From an uncultured Erysipelotrichaceae bacterium (lineage in GTDB: Bacteria; Bacillota_I; Bacilli_A; Erysipelotrichales; Erysipelotrichaceae), in NCBI GenBank assembly GCA_902796465.1, contig CADBPK010000075.1, positions 1 to 16,003 of the forward strand: a DNA stretch of 16,003 bases. Direction: 5' to 3'. The position numbers and the translations under genes were made by a program. The notes under the pieces were generated by a model, which was given only the letters and a program-made list of their open reading frames with translations, was not told the DNA's origin and made no database searches. Shown here piece by piece: positions 2,445 to 13,231 of this stretch (within the stretch, counting starts at the first letter, position 1; the number at the start of each line of letters is the position of its first letter).

Positions 2445-3731
2445 TTACTTTTTCGGTTCCAGTTTCTTCTGTCCTCCCATATATGGCTGCAGAGCCTCAG
2501 GAATATTGACGCTGCCGTCTTCGTTCAGGTTATTTTCAAGGAATGCGATCAGCATACGCGGCGGTGCAACTACAGTGTTATTCAGTGTATGCGGATAATA
2601 GTTTCCTTTTTCTCCCTTTACACGGATGCTCAGTCTTCTTGCTTGTGCTTCTCCAAGATTTGAGCAGCTTCCTACTTCAAAATACTTTTTCTGACGCGGA
2701 GACCAAGCTTCCACATCGCAGCTCTTAACTTTCAGGTCTGCAAGGTCGCCTGAGCAGCATTCAAGCGTTCTTACAGGAATATCAAGTGTACGGAAGAAAT
2801 CTACAGTATTCTGCCAGAGTTTGTCATACCATTCCTTGGAGTCTTCAGGCTTGCAGACAACGACCATTTCCTGTTTTTCAAACTGATGGACACGGTATAG
2901 GCCTCTTTCTTCGATACCATGTGCACCGACTTCTTTACGGAAACACGGACTATAGCTGGTCAATGCCTGAGGAAGCTGATCTTCTTTCAGAATCTGGTTG
3001 ATAAATCTGCCTACCATAGAATGTTCCGATGTACCGATCAGATACAGATCTTCTCCTTCGATCTTGTACATCATATTTTCCATTTCCTTAAAGCTCATAA
3101 CGCCTTTTACTACATCACCGTGGATCATGAACGGAGGAATAAAGTAAGTAAATCCTCTGTTGATCATAAAATCACGTGCATAGGAAAGAATAGAAGAATG
3201 CAGTCGTGCAGCGTCACCCTTTAAATAATAGAATCCATTTCCGGATGTACGTCCGGCAGCTTCCAGATCAAGGCCATCAAGATTTTCAAGAATGTCTGTA
3301 TGATATGGAATTGGGAATTTCGGAACAAACGGATCTCCGAACTTTTCGATTTCAACGTTTTCCGAATCATCTTTACCGATCGGAACGGTAGGGTCGATGA
3401 TATTTGGAATTACCATCATTCTCTTATTAATTTCTTCAGCTAATTCAGCTTCTTTTTCTTCCAGTACATCAATCTCGTTTCCGATTTCTTTTACCTGGGC
3501 TTTTACTTTTTCCGCTTCTTCCTTCTGACCGGTCTTCATCAATCCGCCAATTGTCTTAGAAATACGGTTTCTTTCTGCGCGAAGCGAATCACCTTTTGTT
3601 TTTGATGCACGGTATTCTTTATCCATTTCGAATACTTCATCAACAAGCACCAGTTTTTCGTCCTGAAACTTCTTCTTAATGTTTTCTTTTACAAGTTCTG
3701 CGTTGTCCCTGATAAGATTAATATCGATCAT
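2445..3731 (-). CDS. serS: Seryl-tRNA synthetase
   Basis: Class II aminoacyl-tRNA synthetase that charges tRNA-Ser. The 428-residue protein has the usual N-terminal antiparallel coiled-coil arm (roughly residues 30-105, rich in Lys/Glu) that grips the long variable arm of tRNA-Ser. The catalytic domain shows the TSE motif at 234-236, motif 2 around FRKEVGAHGIEERGLYRVHQ (264-283), and motif 3 at 382-401. Motif 3 reads LNNTVVAPPR instead of the more common LNGSGLAVGR; I recall similar forms in anaerobic Bacillota SerRS, and the motif 3 arginine (R392) is kept. The C-terminus is PEALQPYMGG plus a lysine-rich tail. The start is fixed by AGGAGG at 3735-3740. Expression is predicted to be controlled by the T-box leader upstream. 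Two parS sites bracket the gene. Confidence 0.97.
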   Translation of the reverse strand: MIDINLIRDNAELVKENIKKKFQDEKLVLVDEVFEMDKEYRASKTKGDSLRAERNRISKTIGGLMKTGQKEEAEKVKAQVKEIGNEIDVLEEKEAELAEEINKRMMVIPNIIDPTVPIGKDDSENVEIEKFGDPFVPKFPIPYHTDILENLDGLDLEAAGRTSGNGFYYLKGDAARLHSSILSYARDFMINRGFTYFIPPFMIHGDVVKGVMSFKEMENMMYKIEGEDLYLIGTSEHSMVGRFINQILKEDQLPQALTSYSPCFRKEVGAHGIEERGLYRVHQFEKQEMVVVCKPEDSKEWYDKLWQNTVDFFRTLDIPVRTLECCSGDLADLKVKSCDVEAWSPRQKKYFEVGSCSNLGEAQARRLSIRVKGEKGNYYPHTLNNTVVAPPRMLIAFLENNLNEDGSVNIPEALQPYMGGQKKLEPKK

Positions 3732-3748
3732 ATATCCTCCTTATAATG

Positions 3749-3777
3749 AAAAAACACCATCCGTAAGGGACGATGTT
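3749..3777 (-). terminator. Regulatory terminator of the serS T-box
   Basis: Stem AACATCGTCC / GGATGGTGTT (3777-3768 with 3762-3753, two G-U pairs) with a five-base loop, followed by a T tract to 3749. Its 5' arm contains CGTCCC, which can instead pair with the T-box AGGG to form the antiterminator, the standard switch in this class. Confidence 0.9.
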
Positions 3778-3805
3778 ATCGCGGTACCACCCTAATTATC
3801 ATAAT

Positions 3806-3821
3806 TGTTTCACGTGAAACA
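3806..3821. other. parS chromosome partition site, copy 2, inside the T-box leader
   Basis: TGTTTCACGTGAAACA, identical to the copy at 2422-2437 and again extended to a perfect 20-bp palindrome (3804-3823). It lies between the F-box/Stem II region and the T-box core of the serS leader, so it is also transcribed and can fold as an RNA hairpin in the Stem III position. Confidence 0.92.
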
Positions 3822-3975
3822 ATGTGTGATCTCTCTGCGGCATAACGGACCGGACCGGGAATGATTGGTTCCACTCCGGGATGGATTTCCTGATATATAT
3901 TGATTAACTCACATCACCCGTTAACTTTCTGAACAATATATAAAAGTACTTGTTCCCTTCATCGTATTTAGAAAT

Positions 3976-4005
3976 ATTTTAATCAGTCCTTATAATATTT
4001 GTCAA
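3976..4005 (-). promoter_or_regulatory. Promoter of serS
   Basis: A perfect -35 TTGACA (4005-4000), an 18-base spacer and a -10 TAAAAT (3981-3976) are found on the minus strand. The predicted transcript start near 3969 lies just upstream of Stem I of the T-box. The -35 overlaps that of the divergent promoter. Confidence 0.75.
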
Positions 4006-4120: not shown

Positions 4121-4342
4121 ATGGACGCTGCTGAGCAGTACAAAAAGAAGCTTGAGTACAACAATACTTATAACAAGAATACATATCGTTCATTTTCTGT
4201 TCGTTTCAACAAAAAAACTGAAGCCGATATCATTGAATGGCTTGAATCAAAAGAAGGGGTAAAAAACTATATTATTTCCCTGATCGAGTCTGATATCAAA
4301 AAAGAAAAGAAAAAGGCAGAAAGAAAAGCTAAAAAGAAGTAA
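4121..4342 (+). CDS. Small basic protein, probable ribbon-helix-helix DNA-binding protein
   Basis: The only plus-strand gene in the window. It has a good AAGGAG ribosome binding site at 4108-4113 and a terminator after it. The 73-residue product has a charged N-terminus, a strand-like segment SFSVRF (24-29), two predicted helices (about 33-43, TEADIIEWLES, and 46-58, GVKNYIISLIESD), and a very basic tail (KKEKKKAERKAKKK). A strand followed by two helices, with the second in the form VKxYIxxLIxxDI, is the pattern of Arc/MetJ-type ribbon-helix-helix proteins; such proteins bind operators as dimers. I infer this from pattern only; I do not recognise a named family, and the target is unknown. No toxin partner is next to it. 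A role in repressing its own promoter, which overlaps that of serS, is plausible but untested. Confidence 0.8.
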   Translation: MDAAEQYKKKLEYNNTYNKNTYRSFSVRFNKKTEADIIEWLESKEGVKNYIISLIESDIKKEKKKAERKAKKK

Positions 4343-4365: not shown

Positions 4366-4397
4366 AAAAGATCAGGAGTAATTACTCCTGATCTTTT
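4366..4397. terminator. Bidirectional terminator between the small gene and gyrA
   Basis: A perfect 32-base inverted repeat, 16 bases per arm, starting AAAAGATCAGGAGTAA. Read on plus it ends in TTTT after the small gene; read on minus it ends in TTTT after gyrA. The gyrA stop codon (4384-4382) and its last four codons (Lys-Asp-Gln-Glu) lie inside the repeat, so part of the hairpin is coding sequence. Confidence 0.88.
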
Positions 4398-10361: not shown

Positions 10362-12260
10362 TTACCAGATAATGATTCTCTTATCTTCCGGAATATACAT
10401 CTGATCCGTATCTTTTACACCGAATGTTTCATACCATTCCGGGAAATTTCTGACCTGGATATTGGCTCTCAGCTTATTCGGTGAATGCACATCATTCTTC
10501 AGAAGGAACTGTGTATATTCGTCCCTGCATTTCAGACACCAGACTTTTCCCCAGTTACGGAAATATTCTCCATAGTCAGCGCCTTCTGTCTGATGCATGA
10601 TCTCCAGCGTAACAGCCATACCGCCGTTATCCGCGATATTTTCACTGACTACCAGTTCGCCGTTGACTTTTCCGCCGCAGAATTCAATGCCGTCCCACTG
10701 TTCGATCATATCCTGTGTCAGTTTTTTGAAGGATTCCTGATCAGTATCGCTCCACCAGTTGTTCAGATTTCCGTTTTCATCAAAATGTGAACCGTTGTTG
10801 TCAAATGCATGAGATATTTCATGCGCAATAACTGCTCCGATTCCGCCGAGGTTCTCACTCGGTGTCTGACTCAGGGAATAGAATGGTTTCTGCAGTATCG
10901 CTGCCGGGAATGTAATATCATTGCGGCTCGGATCATAACATGCATTTACCATATGTCCGGGCATCAGCCATTCATCACGGTCTACCGGGATATTCAGACG
11001 GTTGAGATTTTCAAGCATTGCAATGCGGCATAAGTTTTCCATTGTCTGATAATAGGAATCTTCTTCATTGACTTTAAGCTGTTTGAAATAATCCCTTACT
11101 TTATCCGGATAACCCATTTTGATGGTAATTGTGGAAAGTTTGGCAATTGCCTTTTCCTTTGTCTTTTCTTCCAGGAAAGTATTCTTTCTCATACGGCTTT
11201 TATAGGTCTCAATGATCTTTTTAACCATGGAAGTGACATCTTTTCTGGCTTCATCACCGAAATATGTCTGTGCATAGTACACGCCTACCGGTTCGCTGAA
11301 TACTTCCCCGACGGTCTGATATGCCTGTTTTTCCATCACAGGATCTTCCGTAACACCCATCAGCGCACGGCGGAACATTGTGGAATTGGATCTCAGCTCT
11401 TCTGAAAGATATGCACTCTTTTTCAGCAGCGTGCGTACATAAGCCCAGTGAATATATTTACTGTAGTTTTCTTCACAGAAATAACCGTTCATTTCACGGA
11501 TCGCCTTCGGATCATAGACGATCGTATTTTCCGGAATCTGATCGCCGTAAAGCTTCTTCAGCAGGCCTTTCAGATCAAACGGTGCTGTATAGCCGCATAC
11601 TTCCTCCAGGGGCATCGGATTGTAGTTATTGACATAATCTGCCCATTCCAGAGCGCTTTTTACTTTTCCTGCGATCAGTGCGTCATACGCAAGTGTATCA
11701 TCAACATATGTTTTCTGATCTTCCTCATTCAGATCTGTGTATTTCAGCGCATTTTCAGCCATATTCCTGAATACACTGAGAAGCTGGTCACCTTCCGGTG
11801 TCCCGTAATATGTTGTATCCGGAAGAATGATATCCGGTCCGTTCAGAACAAGGGCGTTGGCAGATGTATTTTTCATATCTGCTTCAACAAAGATCTGAAA
11901 CGGCATATATACACCTTTCAGCATCAGATCATATGCTTTTTCATTCAGTTCCTTTACTGATCCTGTACTTCTGATCTCTTCCAGAAGACCTTTGACCGGT
12001 TCAATACCTTCTCTATTTCTTCTTTCGGTATCAAGTATTTTACGGTACAGCTTCACTGCATCTTCCATACCTGTAATATCACTGTGTTTTTTTCCTTCCG
12101 CAAAATCTGCCAGATCACTCATCATGATCTTTTCGACACCTTCCGCAAGTACTTCAAAACCGCCGGTCCTGGGTTTGTCATCCGGAATAACAGCTGTTGC
12201 CAGCCATTCCCCGTTTACATTTTCAAAAAGATCATCCTGTATTCTTACTTTGTTTTCCAT
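10362..12260 (-). CDS. pepO: M13-family zinc endopeptidase (PepO/neprilysin type)
   Basis: Metallo-endopeptidase that cuts short peptides. The 632-residue length is normal for bacterial PepO. The zinc site is complete: HEISH at 480-484 (ligands His480 and His484, catalytic Glu481) and the third ligand Glu540 in ENIADNGG, with Asp544. The substrate-binding stretch NACYDPSRNDITFPA (439-453) and the ending YIPEDKRIIIW also match the family. No signal peptide or membrane segment is visible at the N-terminus (MENKVRIQDDLFENVNGEWL), so it should be cytoplasmic, unlike animal neprilysin. The start has GAGG eight bases upstream. The gene follows the oxidase-like gene by 26 bases with no terminator between, so they are probably one transcript. 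Its place between dnaN and rlbA is unusual. The symbol is by family, not by proven orthology. Confidence 0.93.
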   Translation of the reverse strand: MENKVRIQDDLFENVNGEWLATAVIPDDKPRTGGFEVLAEGVEKIMMSDLADFAEGKKHSDITGMEDAVKLYRKILDTERRNREGIEPVKGLLEEIRSTGSVKELNEKAYDLMLKGVYMPFQIFVEADMKNTSANALVLNGPDIILPDTTYYGTPEGDQLLSVFRNMAENALKYTDLNEEDQKTYVDDTLAYDALIAGKVKSALEWADYVNNYNPMPLEEVCGYTAPFDLKGLLKKLYGDQIPENTIVYDPKAIREMNGYFCEENYSKYIHWAYVRTLLKKSAYLSEELRSNSTMFRRALMGVTEDPVMEKQAYQTVGEVFSEPVGVYYAQTYFGDEARKDVTSMVKKIIETYKSRMRKNTFLEEKTKEKAIAKLSTITIKMGYPDKVRDYFKQLKVNEEDSYYQTMENLCRIAMLENLNRLNIPVDRDEWLMPGHMVNACYDPSRNDITFPAAILQKPFYSLSQTPSENLGGIGAVIAHEISHAFDNNGSHFDENGNLNNWWSDTDQESFKKLTQDMIEQWDGIEFCGGKVNGELVVSENIADNGGMAVTLEIMHQTEGADYGEYFRNWGKVWCLKCRDEYTQFLLKNDVHSPNKLRANIQVRNFPEWYETFGVKDTDQMYIPEDKRIIIW

Positions 12261-12286
12261 TTTGTTACCTCACTTACAATAAAATA

Positions 12287-13231
12287 TCACAGAATATGAA
12301 GGACAGAAGAGTCCATTTCCTTAAGACTCCGGATTCCGGTATATCCCATCATTTCGGAAAGTTCCTCATTCATGCGTGTTACTTTCCTGATTACACCGTC
12401 CTTTCCGTCTTTCAGCAGTCCGGGAAGTATGCCTCTTCCTACAGATACCGCGTCAGCGCCGTTTGCGAGCGCTTTGAACGCGTCATAGCCGGTATCGATT
12501 CCGCAGTCGACGAACAGCTTCATTTTCGTGTCAGGCATTGCTTTCCTGATCTCCTGAAGGGCCAGGACAGGCGGAATGCCGAACGGCAGTCTGCCGTGAT
12601 GATGTGAAATGAAGATACCGGCACATCCGGCTTTCTCACATTTCTCAGCATCAGATACGGAAAGCACGCCTTTTGCAATAAACGGTGTACTGCCGGCTGC
12701 TTTGACATATTCACACAGATCTTCATACATGACCGGGCCAAGATCGATTCCGTCAACGATATCATACTTGCCGTTTTTGCCGAAAACATGATCGATATCA
12801 ACACCGACAGCAATGGCACCATGTGCTTTTGCAAAAGCGATCTGTTTCAGGATCTCGTTATGATCCTTGAAAGGCTTTATTATCCTTACCGTATCTGCAC
12901 CGATATCTGCAATGGATGCATATTCATCATCCGGTTCCATGCCTACCCAGTTGACAAGATTCATTTCCTTCGCCGCAAGCGCGTATTCCTGCATCGGCGT
13001 TCTCCCAGTAATACCGACTTTATTCAGATGTGAAAAAGCAGGCATCATGATCGGGGAAGAATACTTTCTTCCGAACAGTTCCAGTGTCAGATCCGCTTCC
13101 AGCGCGTCAACGACCCGCATTTCTACGAGCATGCTGTCAAGATATTTCCGGTTGTGCATATTGGCATCAGCCGCGTTTCTTTCCGGTTCCGGGATCATTC
13201 CCTTTGGTCCGGGCCATTTTCTTTCTTCCAT
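12287..13231 (-). CDS. FMN-dependent alpha-hydroxy-acid oxidase/dehydrogenase-like protein
   Basis: A TIM-barrel flavoenzyme related to lactate and glycolate oxidases; these oxidise an alpha-hydroxy acid to a keto acid. At 314 residues it is shorter than typical members (about 350-370). Recognisable parts are KYSSPIMMPAFSH (about 56-68), AKGV with the FMN-contacting Lys187, the active-site motif SHHHGR (209-214), and the phosphate-binding end VDCGIDTGYDAFKALANGADAV...GRG (241-267). The usual active-site motif is SNHGGR: the catalytic His211 and Arg214 are kept, but Asn and Gly next to them are both His. The tyrosines that contact substrate in lactate oxidase were not clearly identified, so the substrate is unknown and lactate should not be assumed. 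A peroxide-forming oxidase would be notable if the host is an anaerobe; a dehydrogenase role is possible. It is first of a two-gene unit with the peptidase, after AAGGAAG as ribosome binding site. Confidence 0.88.
   Translation of the reverse strand: MEERKWPGPKGMIPEPERNAADANMHNRKYLDSMLVEMRVVDALEADLTLELFGRKYSSPIMMPAFSHLNKVGITGRTPMQEYALAAKEMNLVNWVGMEPDDEYASIADIGADTVRIIKPFKDHNEILKQIAFAKAHGAIAVGVDIDHVFGKNGKYDIVDGIDLGPVMYEDLCEYVKAAGSTPFIAKGVLSVSDAEKCEKAGCAGIFISHHHGRLPFGIPPVLALQEIRKAMPDTKMKLFVDCGIDTGYDAFKALANGADAVSVGRGILPGLLKDGKDGVIRKVTRMNEELSEMMGYTGIRSLKEMDSSVLHIL

Follow-up and report, generated by a model that had tools for sequence, protein, structure and literature searches.

A chromosomal parS sequence at the Stem III position of serS T-box leaders in Erysipelotrichaceae and their relatives

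Chromosomal parS sites usually lie near oriC. In B. subtilis, parS lies inside the protein-coding gene spo0J. In P. aeruginosa, ParB represses the genes adjacent to parS3 and parS4 (PMC5521831, PMC7022226); in B. subtilis, genes adjoining parS were unchanged without the ParB protein Spo0J (PMC7022226), and ParB is also reported to get past roadblocks (PMC9242446). T-box riboswitches carry a discriminator motif, RRRxG-Stem III-AA, in which Stem III belongs to the sensor and varies in both stem and loop (PMC7583486). Here, a stretch of 16,003 nucleotides from an uncultured Erysipelotrichaceae bacterium (i.e. contig CADBPK010000075.1 of assembly GCA_902796465.1; hereafter the window) was analysed, in which both elements meet upstream of serS, the gene for seryl-tRNA synthetase (SerS). 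Sequence comparison with relatives makes it very probable that a 16-mer in the serS leader is a working chromosomal parS, accommodated in a T-box Stem III where a fixed palindrome is tolerated. Searches of the open-licence literature listed no account of a T-box or other riboswitch that contains parS.

The serS gene of the window (2445-3731, minus strand; 428 aa; TIGR00414, 400.6 bits against a cut-off of 301.65) is preceded on the same strand by a T-box leader at 3763-3971, which scores 118.4 bits with the Rfam model RF00230 (gathering cut-off 93) and aligns to model positions 1-219 of 219. As in transcriptional T-boxes of the serS class, the leader contains a Stem I with a Ser specifier (UCC, 3883-3885; the relatives that were inspected have UCC or UCU, ahead of A/G, in the corresponding position), CCGUUAU in the F-box region (3842-3848) and the core AGGGUGGUACCGCG (3780-3793), both of the latter seen in the sequence and the Rfam alignment, and upstream of serS a terminator-like hairpin followed by a U run (3753-3777; consensus match in a terminator scan, and fold). 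An initial annotation of the window had described a complete T-box leader and these parts bear it out. Directly before the T-box is a candidate promoter-like sequence, TTGACA-18-TAAAAT (3976-4005, minus strand), matching the consensus at 11 of 12 positions in a scan that returned 12 promoter-like sites in 2.25 kb against 6.0 in shuffles. Stem III (3798-3830) is directly flanked by GAGAG (3831-3835), which fits the RRRxG motif on the 5' side, and by AA (3796-3797) on the 3' side (motifs from PMC7583486), and the window passes a strict test for these flanks. Local RNA folding, together with alignment and pair counts in relatives, gives a stem of AUCA, a small internal loop, a parS hairpin of 8 bp closed by an ACGU loop, and UGAU (z of -1.93; 9 of 200 shuffles fold as well). 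Folding of the whole leader recovered the parS hairpin and the terminator, with other parts that are not those of a canonical T-box. The Rfam alignment places parS as an insert within the Stem III loop.

The apical part of this stem is parS site 1, TGTTTCACGTGAAACA, an exact match at 3806-3821 that is conserved in relatives. The palindrome had been reported by the initial annotation, whose coordinates are exact, with 0 mismatches; absent from it was parS site 2, a second exact TGTTTCACGTGAAACA at 2422-2437. This copy lies seven bases past the serS stop, where there is no T-box, and is followed by a small signal recognition particle (SRP) RNA at 2295-2381, between parS site 2 and tadA. With up to three mismatches allowed, shuffles of the window gave a mean of 0.10 matches and at least two in 1 of 200 shuffles, and the whole assembly (2.0 Mb, 333 contigs) contains exactly two exact parS, both in the window. 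Both share the window with dnaA, dnaN, recF, gyrB and gyrA, as is looked for in origin-proximal parS; these genes, serS, tadA and dnaX are encoded on the minus strand (translated open reading frames (ORFs), named by recognition). The locus thus resembles known chromosomal parS/ParB systems in having a canonical palindrome in the dnaA-gyrA region and, in the host, a Spo0J-type ParB beside a ParA-like gene. Unlike the usual chromosomal parS, this one lies inside a structured regulatory RNA, and copies are few, with only two exact ones in the assembly and two per genome in seven single-contig relatives.

Candidate binding proteins were sought in the window's own genome and in its relatives. Two ParB-family genes of the own genome exceed the TIGR00180 cut-off of 58.45 and adjoin genes that read as Soj (ParA-like) and GidB (by recognition); the host ParB scores 193.7 bits with this model, and PF17762 and PF02195 match as well. 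One product is Spo0J-like with R173, and the other is Noc-like in its residues, scoring 312.8 against a Noc model cut-off of 315. A ParB-family gene above the cut-off was present in 38 of the 38 genomes tested. Reading of 31 ParB loci gave 24 proteins with R173 (21 with G201 and 3 with Ser), one Noc-type protein, one spurious locus and five without the motif as searched; R173 and G201 are called absolutely conserved in ParB (PMC7383237). On the reading preferred here, ParB (Spo0J) would load on the T-box 16-mer as on other parS near oriC.

Conservation was assessed in a sample of 118 genomes drawn evenly from the order, of which 111 had SerS and 110 serS leaders were read without selecting on parS (G061 was left out, being without the N-terminus; G094, and G027 and G124 with their split serS genes, were included and contribute two T-boxes that lack parS and one leader in which no core was recognised). 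A T-box containing parS in Stem III was seen in 35 leaders (17 genera) and a T-box without parS in 48; the other 27 have no recognised core, although one or more of these (L130) do possess a T-box, its core being a variant. The initial annotation had proposed an alignment of related serS leaders as a way of telling whether the parS letters or only their pairing are kept; in the 35 leaders, the letters are kept in three near-identical forms (29 TGTTTCACGTGAAACA, 4 TGTTCCACGTGGAACA and 2 TGTTTCACGTGAAACG) and the arms beneath them tend to be kept paired. The central CACGTG, including the bases of the unpaired RNA loop, is identical in 32 distinct rows. As the pattern that defines the parS class itself fixes CACGTG, the comparison was repeated with mismatches allowed: the best match to either symmetric parS form among 107 leaders had 0-1 mismatch in 37 and 4-7 in 70, with none between. 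By comparison, all 46 hairpins found in T-boxes without parS differ from one another. Nine of the 46 are too short for a comparison with parS, and each of the other 37 shows seven or more mismatches to it (the hairpin search was rough, some of the hairpins clearly not being Stem III). These data bear on the proposal that the 16-mer is only an RNA hairpin, i.e. a Stem III that resembles parS by accident whilst the DNA is unbound. Folding and pairing of the 16-mer as Stem III agree with this proposal; however, such a helix would drift, as the differing hairpins of T-boxes without parS indicate, and the 16-mer is instead fixed down to its unpaired ACGT loop. The same 16-mer is also kept outside the T-box (after serS, in leader L233, and in seven single-contig genomes, each with only two such sites). 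An RNA-only role is accordingly regarded as scarcely credible.

The opposite proposal is that parS is only a DNA element in a spacer, with Stem III or T-box function not involving it, or with a T-box that is decaying. Variation of Stem III stems and loops in T-boxes (PMC7583486) and the 48 of 110 leaders whose T-box lacks parS would suit this proposal. Against it, the arms below parS vary in sequence and length in the 35 leaders and yet tend to stay paired: across the 32 distinct rows, 95.6% of cells are paired, double-change cells number 37 as compared to 12.2 after shuffling (0/500 shuffles as extreme), and the covariation score is 0.329 as compared to 0.110 (0/500), in shuffles that ignore relatedness. 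The strict architecture of RRRxG, arm, parS, arm and AA was present at 23 of 32 T-box sites (window included) and at 1 of 53 second sites, placing the flanking motifs at the helix ends. All 35 leaders of the parS class have a core by definition, and behind it comes a T run in 35 of 35, as in 46 of 46 without parS, although in AT-rich DNA this is a weak sign; of 16 relatives sampled from those with a Stem III parS, 14 exceed the Rfam T-box cut-off. In three single-contig genomes of genus g34 (G091, G096 and G111), the T-box parS is the symmetric GTTCCACGTGGAAC and the second copy the asymmetric GTTCCACGTGAAAC, which is what a need for pairing in the T-box alone would predict. A spacer-only role is judged improbable on these grounds. 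The interpretation given by the initial annotation is supported in part, and its claim that one sequence is both the DNA site and Stem III is strongly supported by the comparison (35 of 110 leaders, covariation of the arms, and flanks).

The arrangement was then placed among bacteria at large. One genome from each of 84,980 species was scanned for parS followed within 30 bases by the strict T-box core, which constitutes the widest negative evidence, bearing in mind that the core pattern is strict and that records near the window's genome may be omitted. Of 75 stretches recovered, a SerS N-terminus follows in 70 (by eye), two run off the stretch (L018 and L033) and three are not serS. The 72 remaining leaders have parS at the Stem III position in 71 cases and in the Stem II region in one (L067), and the titles of their records name Erysipelotrichaceae, Erysipelotrichia, Solobacterium, Erysipelothrix, Bulleidia, Lactimicrobium, or unplaced Bacilli, Bacillales, Clostridiales or Firmicutes. 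The three that are not serS, all from Actinomycetota (L001, L020 and L036), were rejected as chance, having no serS downstream, with L020 running into a ParA-like start. The strict pattern misses cores of the GGTGGCAACACG type and a relaxed pattern was made to include these. Order-wide matches, not checked singly, were obtained in 70 of 315 genomes (8 of 79 genera) with the strict pattern and in 110 of 315 (21 of 79) with the relaxed one, the latter including G213 (leader L235), whose parS is not at Stem III. In a class-level draw, 25 of 395 genomes matched; ten of the 25 lie outside the order and belong to six families. Nine of these ten were fetched and all lead into a SerS 33-37% identical to that of the window, with parS at the corresponding place upstream. 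A phylum-level draw gave 28 matches in 392 genomes and returned genomes of the same class only, so that other classes were not covered by it. Presence of parS in Stem III is lineage-restricted and not universal.

The history of the trait was examined on a quick tree of SerS with 115 rows, i.e. 107 from the order and 8 from other families, on which the trait is strongly clustered and well-supported branches force at least four changes. This tree is compatible with loss of an old arrangement on many occasions and also with recurrent gain in one tolerant stem, and does not separate the two. Clustering is also what would be seen if a chance placement had been inherited within a clade with the overlap under no selection, and serS lies near dnaA here, in the vicinity of oriC where parS is usually found. 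Such an origin is nevertheless unlikely, given the four or more forced changes, the sharing of the placement by distant SerS types in other families, and the retention of the 16-mer and of much of the pairing.

Locations of parS other than Stem III, and the number of copies, were also recorded. Thirteen single-contig genomes carry two to four 14-mer parS each, and the seven of them with a T-box copy have exactly two; in a separate count, 30 of 40 genomes had exactly two. Leader L233 has no T-box above the Rfam cut-off, yet an exact parS lies between gyrA and serS, and L106/L234 has a core by pattern, scores below the Rfam cut-off and has its parS 212 bases before the core. L050 and L232 have a second parS, 233 bases upstream of the T-box copy, where 15 additional pairs lengthen it into a long hairpin with T's after it, so that this parS may also serve as a terminator stem. 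In L050, gyrA is not the neighbouring gene. Upstream parS in a long perfect hairpin were located at L232:886-901, L050:3885-3900 and L234:2199-2214, with the T run after it in L050 and L232. L235 (G213) and L067 have the same leader, a serS T-box without a clear Stem III, in which parS is next to the F-box and within the Stem II region; a different T-box module is used for parS there. A parS-like sequence, TGTTCCACGTGAAACA, was also observed inside the serS coding region (codons for NVPRET) in L224, L225, L226 and L227, and in L041 and L047, in lineages that also have a T-box parS. The initial annotation had stated that relatives with another hairpin as Stem III, and parS outside the folded leader, would speak against a shared sequence. 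Such cases exist, namely the 48 T-boxes without parS in Stem III, among them L106 with parS upstream of the core, and the shared arrangement holds for the 35 of 110 leaders that keep parS in Stem III.

These positions also bear on active cross-talk, in which ParB at the T-box copy would regulate serS, by roadblock or repression, or serS transcription would tune ParB loading, tying tRNA-Ser charging to segregation. That parS lies within the leader, flanked by a promoter-like site and a terminator-like hairpin, is compatible with such control, as are the recurrence of the placement in several families and the repression by P. aeruginosa ParB next to parS3 and parS4 (PMC5521831). The latter sites resemble the present one in lying upstream of a gene, and differ in that a transcription effect was measured there whilst the window is known from sequence alone, and in that no riboswitch is mentioned in the consulted parts of the two reports (PMC5521831; PMC7022226). 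Set against cross-talk are the B. subtilis genes at parS that do not change without Spo0J (PMC7022226), the reported ability of ParB to get past roadblocks (PMC9242446), and L233 and L234, which keep parS near serS outside Stem III, so that fusion of the two elements is not needed. Active cross-talk is possible though doubtful, and the mutual effects of ParB loading and serS transcription are probably small.

The reading preferred here is that of a parS that functions as DNA and is housed in Stem III. A perfect DNA palindrome, when transcribed, folds as an RNA hairpin, and would therefore be kept where the serS leader tolerates a fixed hairpin, i.e. at the top of Stem III. In this arrangement, parS would make up the larger part of the Stem III helix, which has on its two sides the RRRxG and AA flanks belonging to the tRNA-aminoacylation sensor, the T-box would switch with the parS-containing stem in place, and, from the order of the parts, RNA polymerase would cross parS at every initiation, whether terminated or not. 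Several observations weigh against this reading. The 48 leaders with a T-box and no parS indicate that parS is not needed for a T-box, L141 and L158 score below the Rfam T-box cut-off despite parS in Stem III, and nine changes are needed to place the trait on the SerS tree. The strict flank test is failed by 9 of 32 sites, six of them in genus g34. Two of five covariation measures are not extreme, namely pairs with a double change (5 versus 3.6; 49/500) and further pair types (14 versus 11.6; 34/500), and the disregard of relatedness in the shuffles counts in the same direction. The first pair outside parS holds 13 of the 37 double-change cells and is weak evidence for RNA pairing because 80% of 50 second sites pair there as well. 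The leaders of L225 and L226 can fold another way (by eye), and L229 carries an asymmetric form of parS that costs one RNA pair. Lastly, the Spo0J of the window's own genome (L183:1252-2151), in which R173 is present, has Ser at the Gly201 position, as in L203 and L213.

Other features of the window lie apart from the leader. A 73-aa ORF without a Pfam match is encoded on the plus strand (4121-4342) between gyrA and the serS promoter region, with a terminator-like site near it at 4366-4397. An M13 peptidase and an FMN-dependent dehydrogenase (10362-13231) lie between dnaN and recF, a placement that seems unusual.

In many genera, and beside two distant SerS types, a probable DNA centromere site occupies the same bases as a riboswitch helix. 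The arrangement resembles the parS of B. subtilis spo0J in that one transcribed sequence is under two codes, the second code being RNA folding here and codons there. As compared to other T-boxes, in which the stem and loop of Stem III are described as variable (PMC7583486), the apical part of Stem III is here a fixed 16-bp sequence across many genera. Because the alignment to the Rfam model treated parS as no more than an insertion, such overlaps could go unnoticed. A physical coupling of partition to aminoacyl-tRNA sensing can be envisaged, in which passage of polymerase over the T-box parS would reset or tune ParB loading in step with firing of the serS promoter and with serine status, or ParB clamps loaded there would shape serS transcription, producing a nutrient-responsive centromere; this is unlikely. 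Since one of only two parS lies in the leader in seven single-contig genomes, these genomes offer a natural test of how transcription and ParB loading act on each other. More generally, the findings suggest a rule whereby a transcribed palindrome must be housed where the RNA tolerates a hairpin, and other lineages may obey this rule in other ways, through a parS placed within a terminator-like hairpin upstream of the serS leader (L050 and L232) or beside the F-box (L235).
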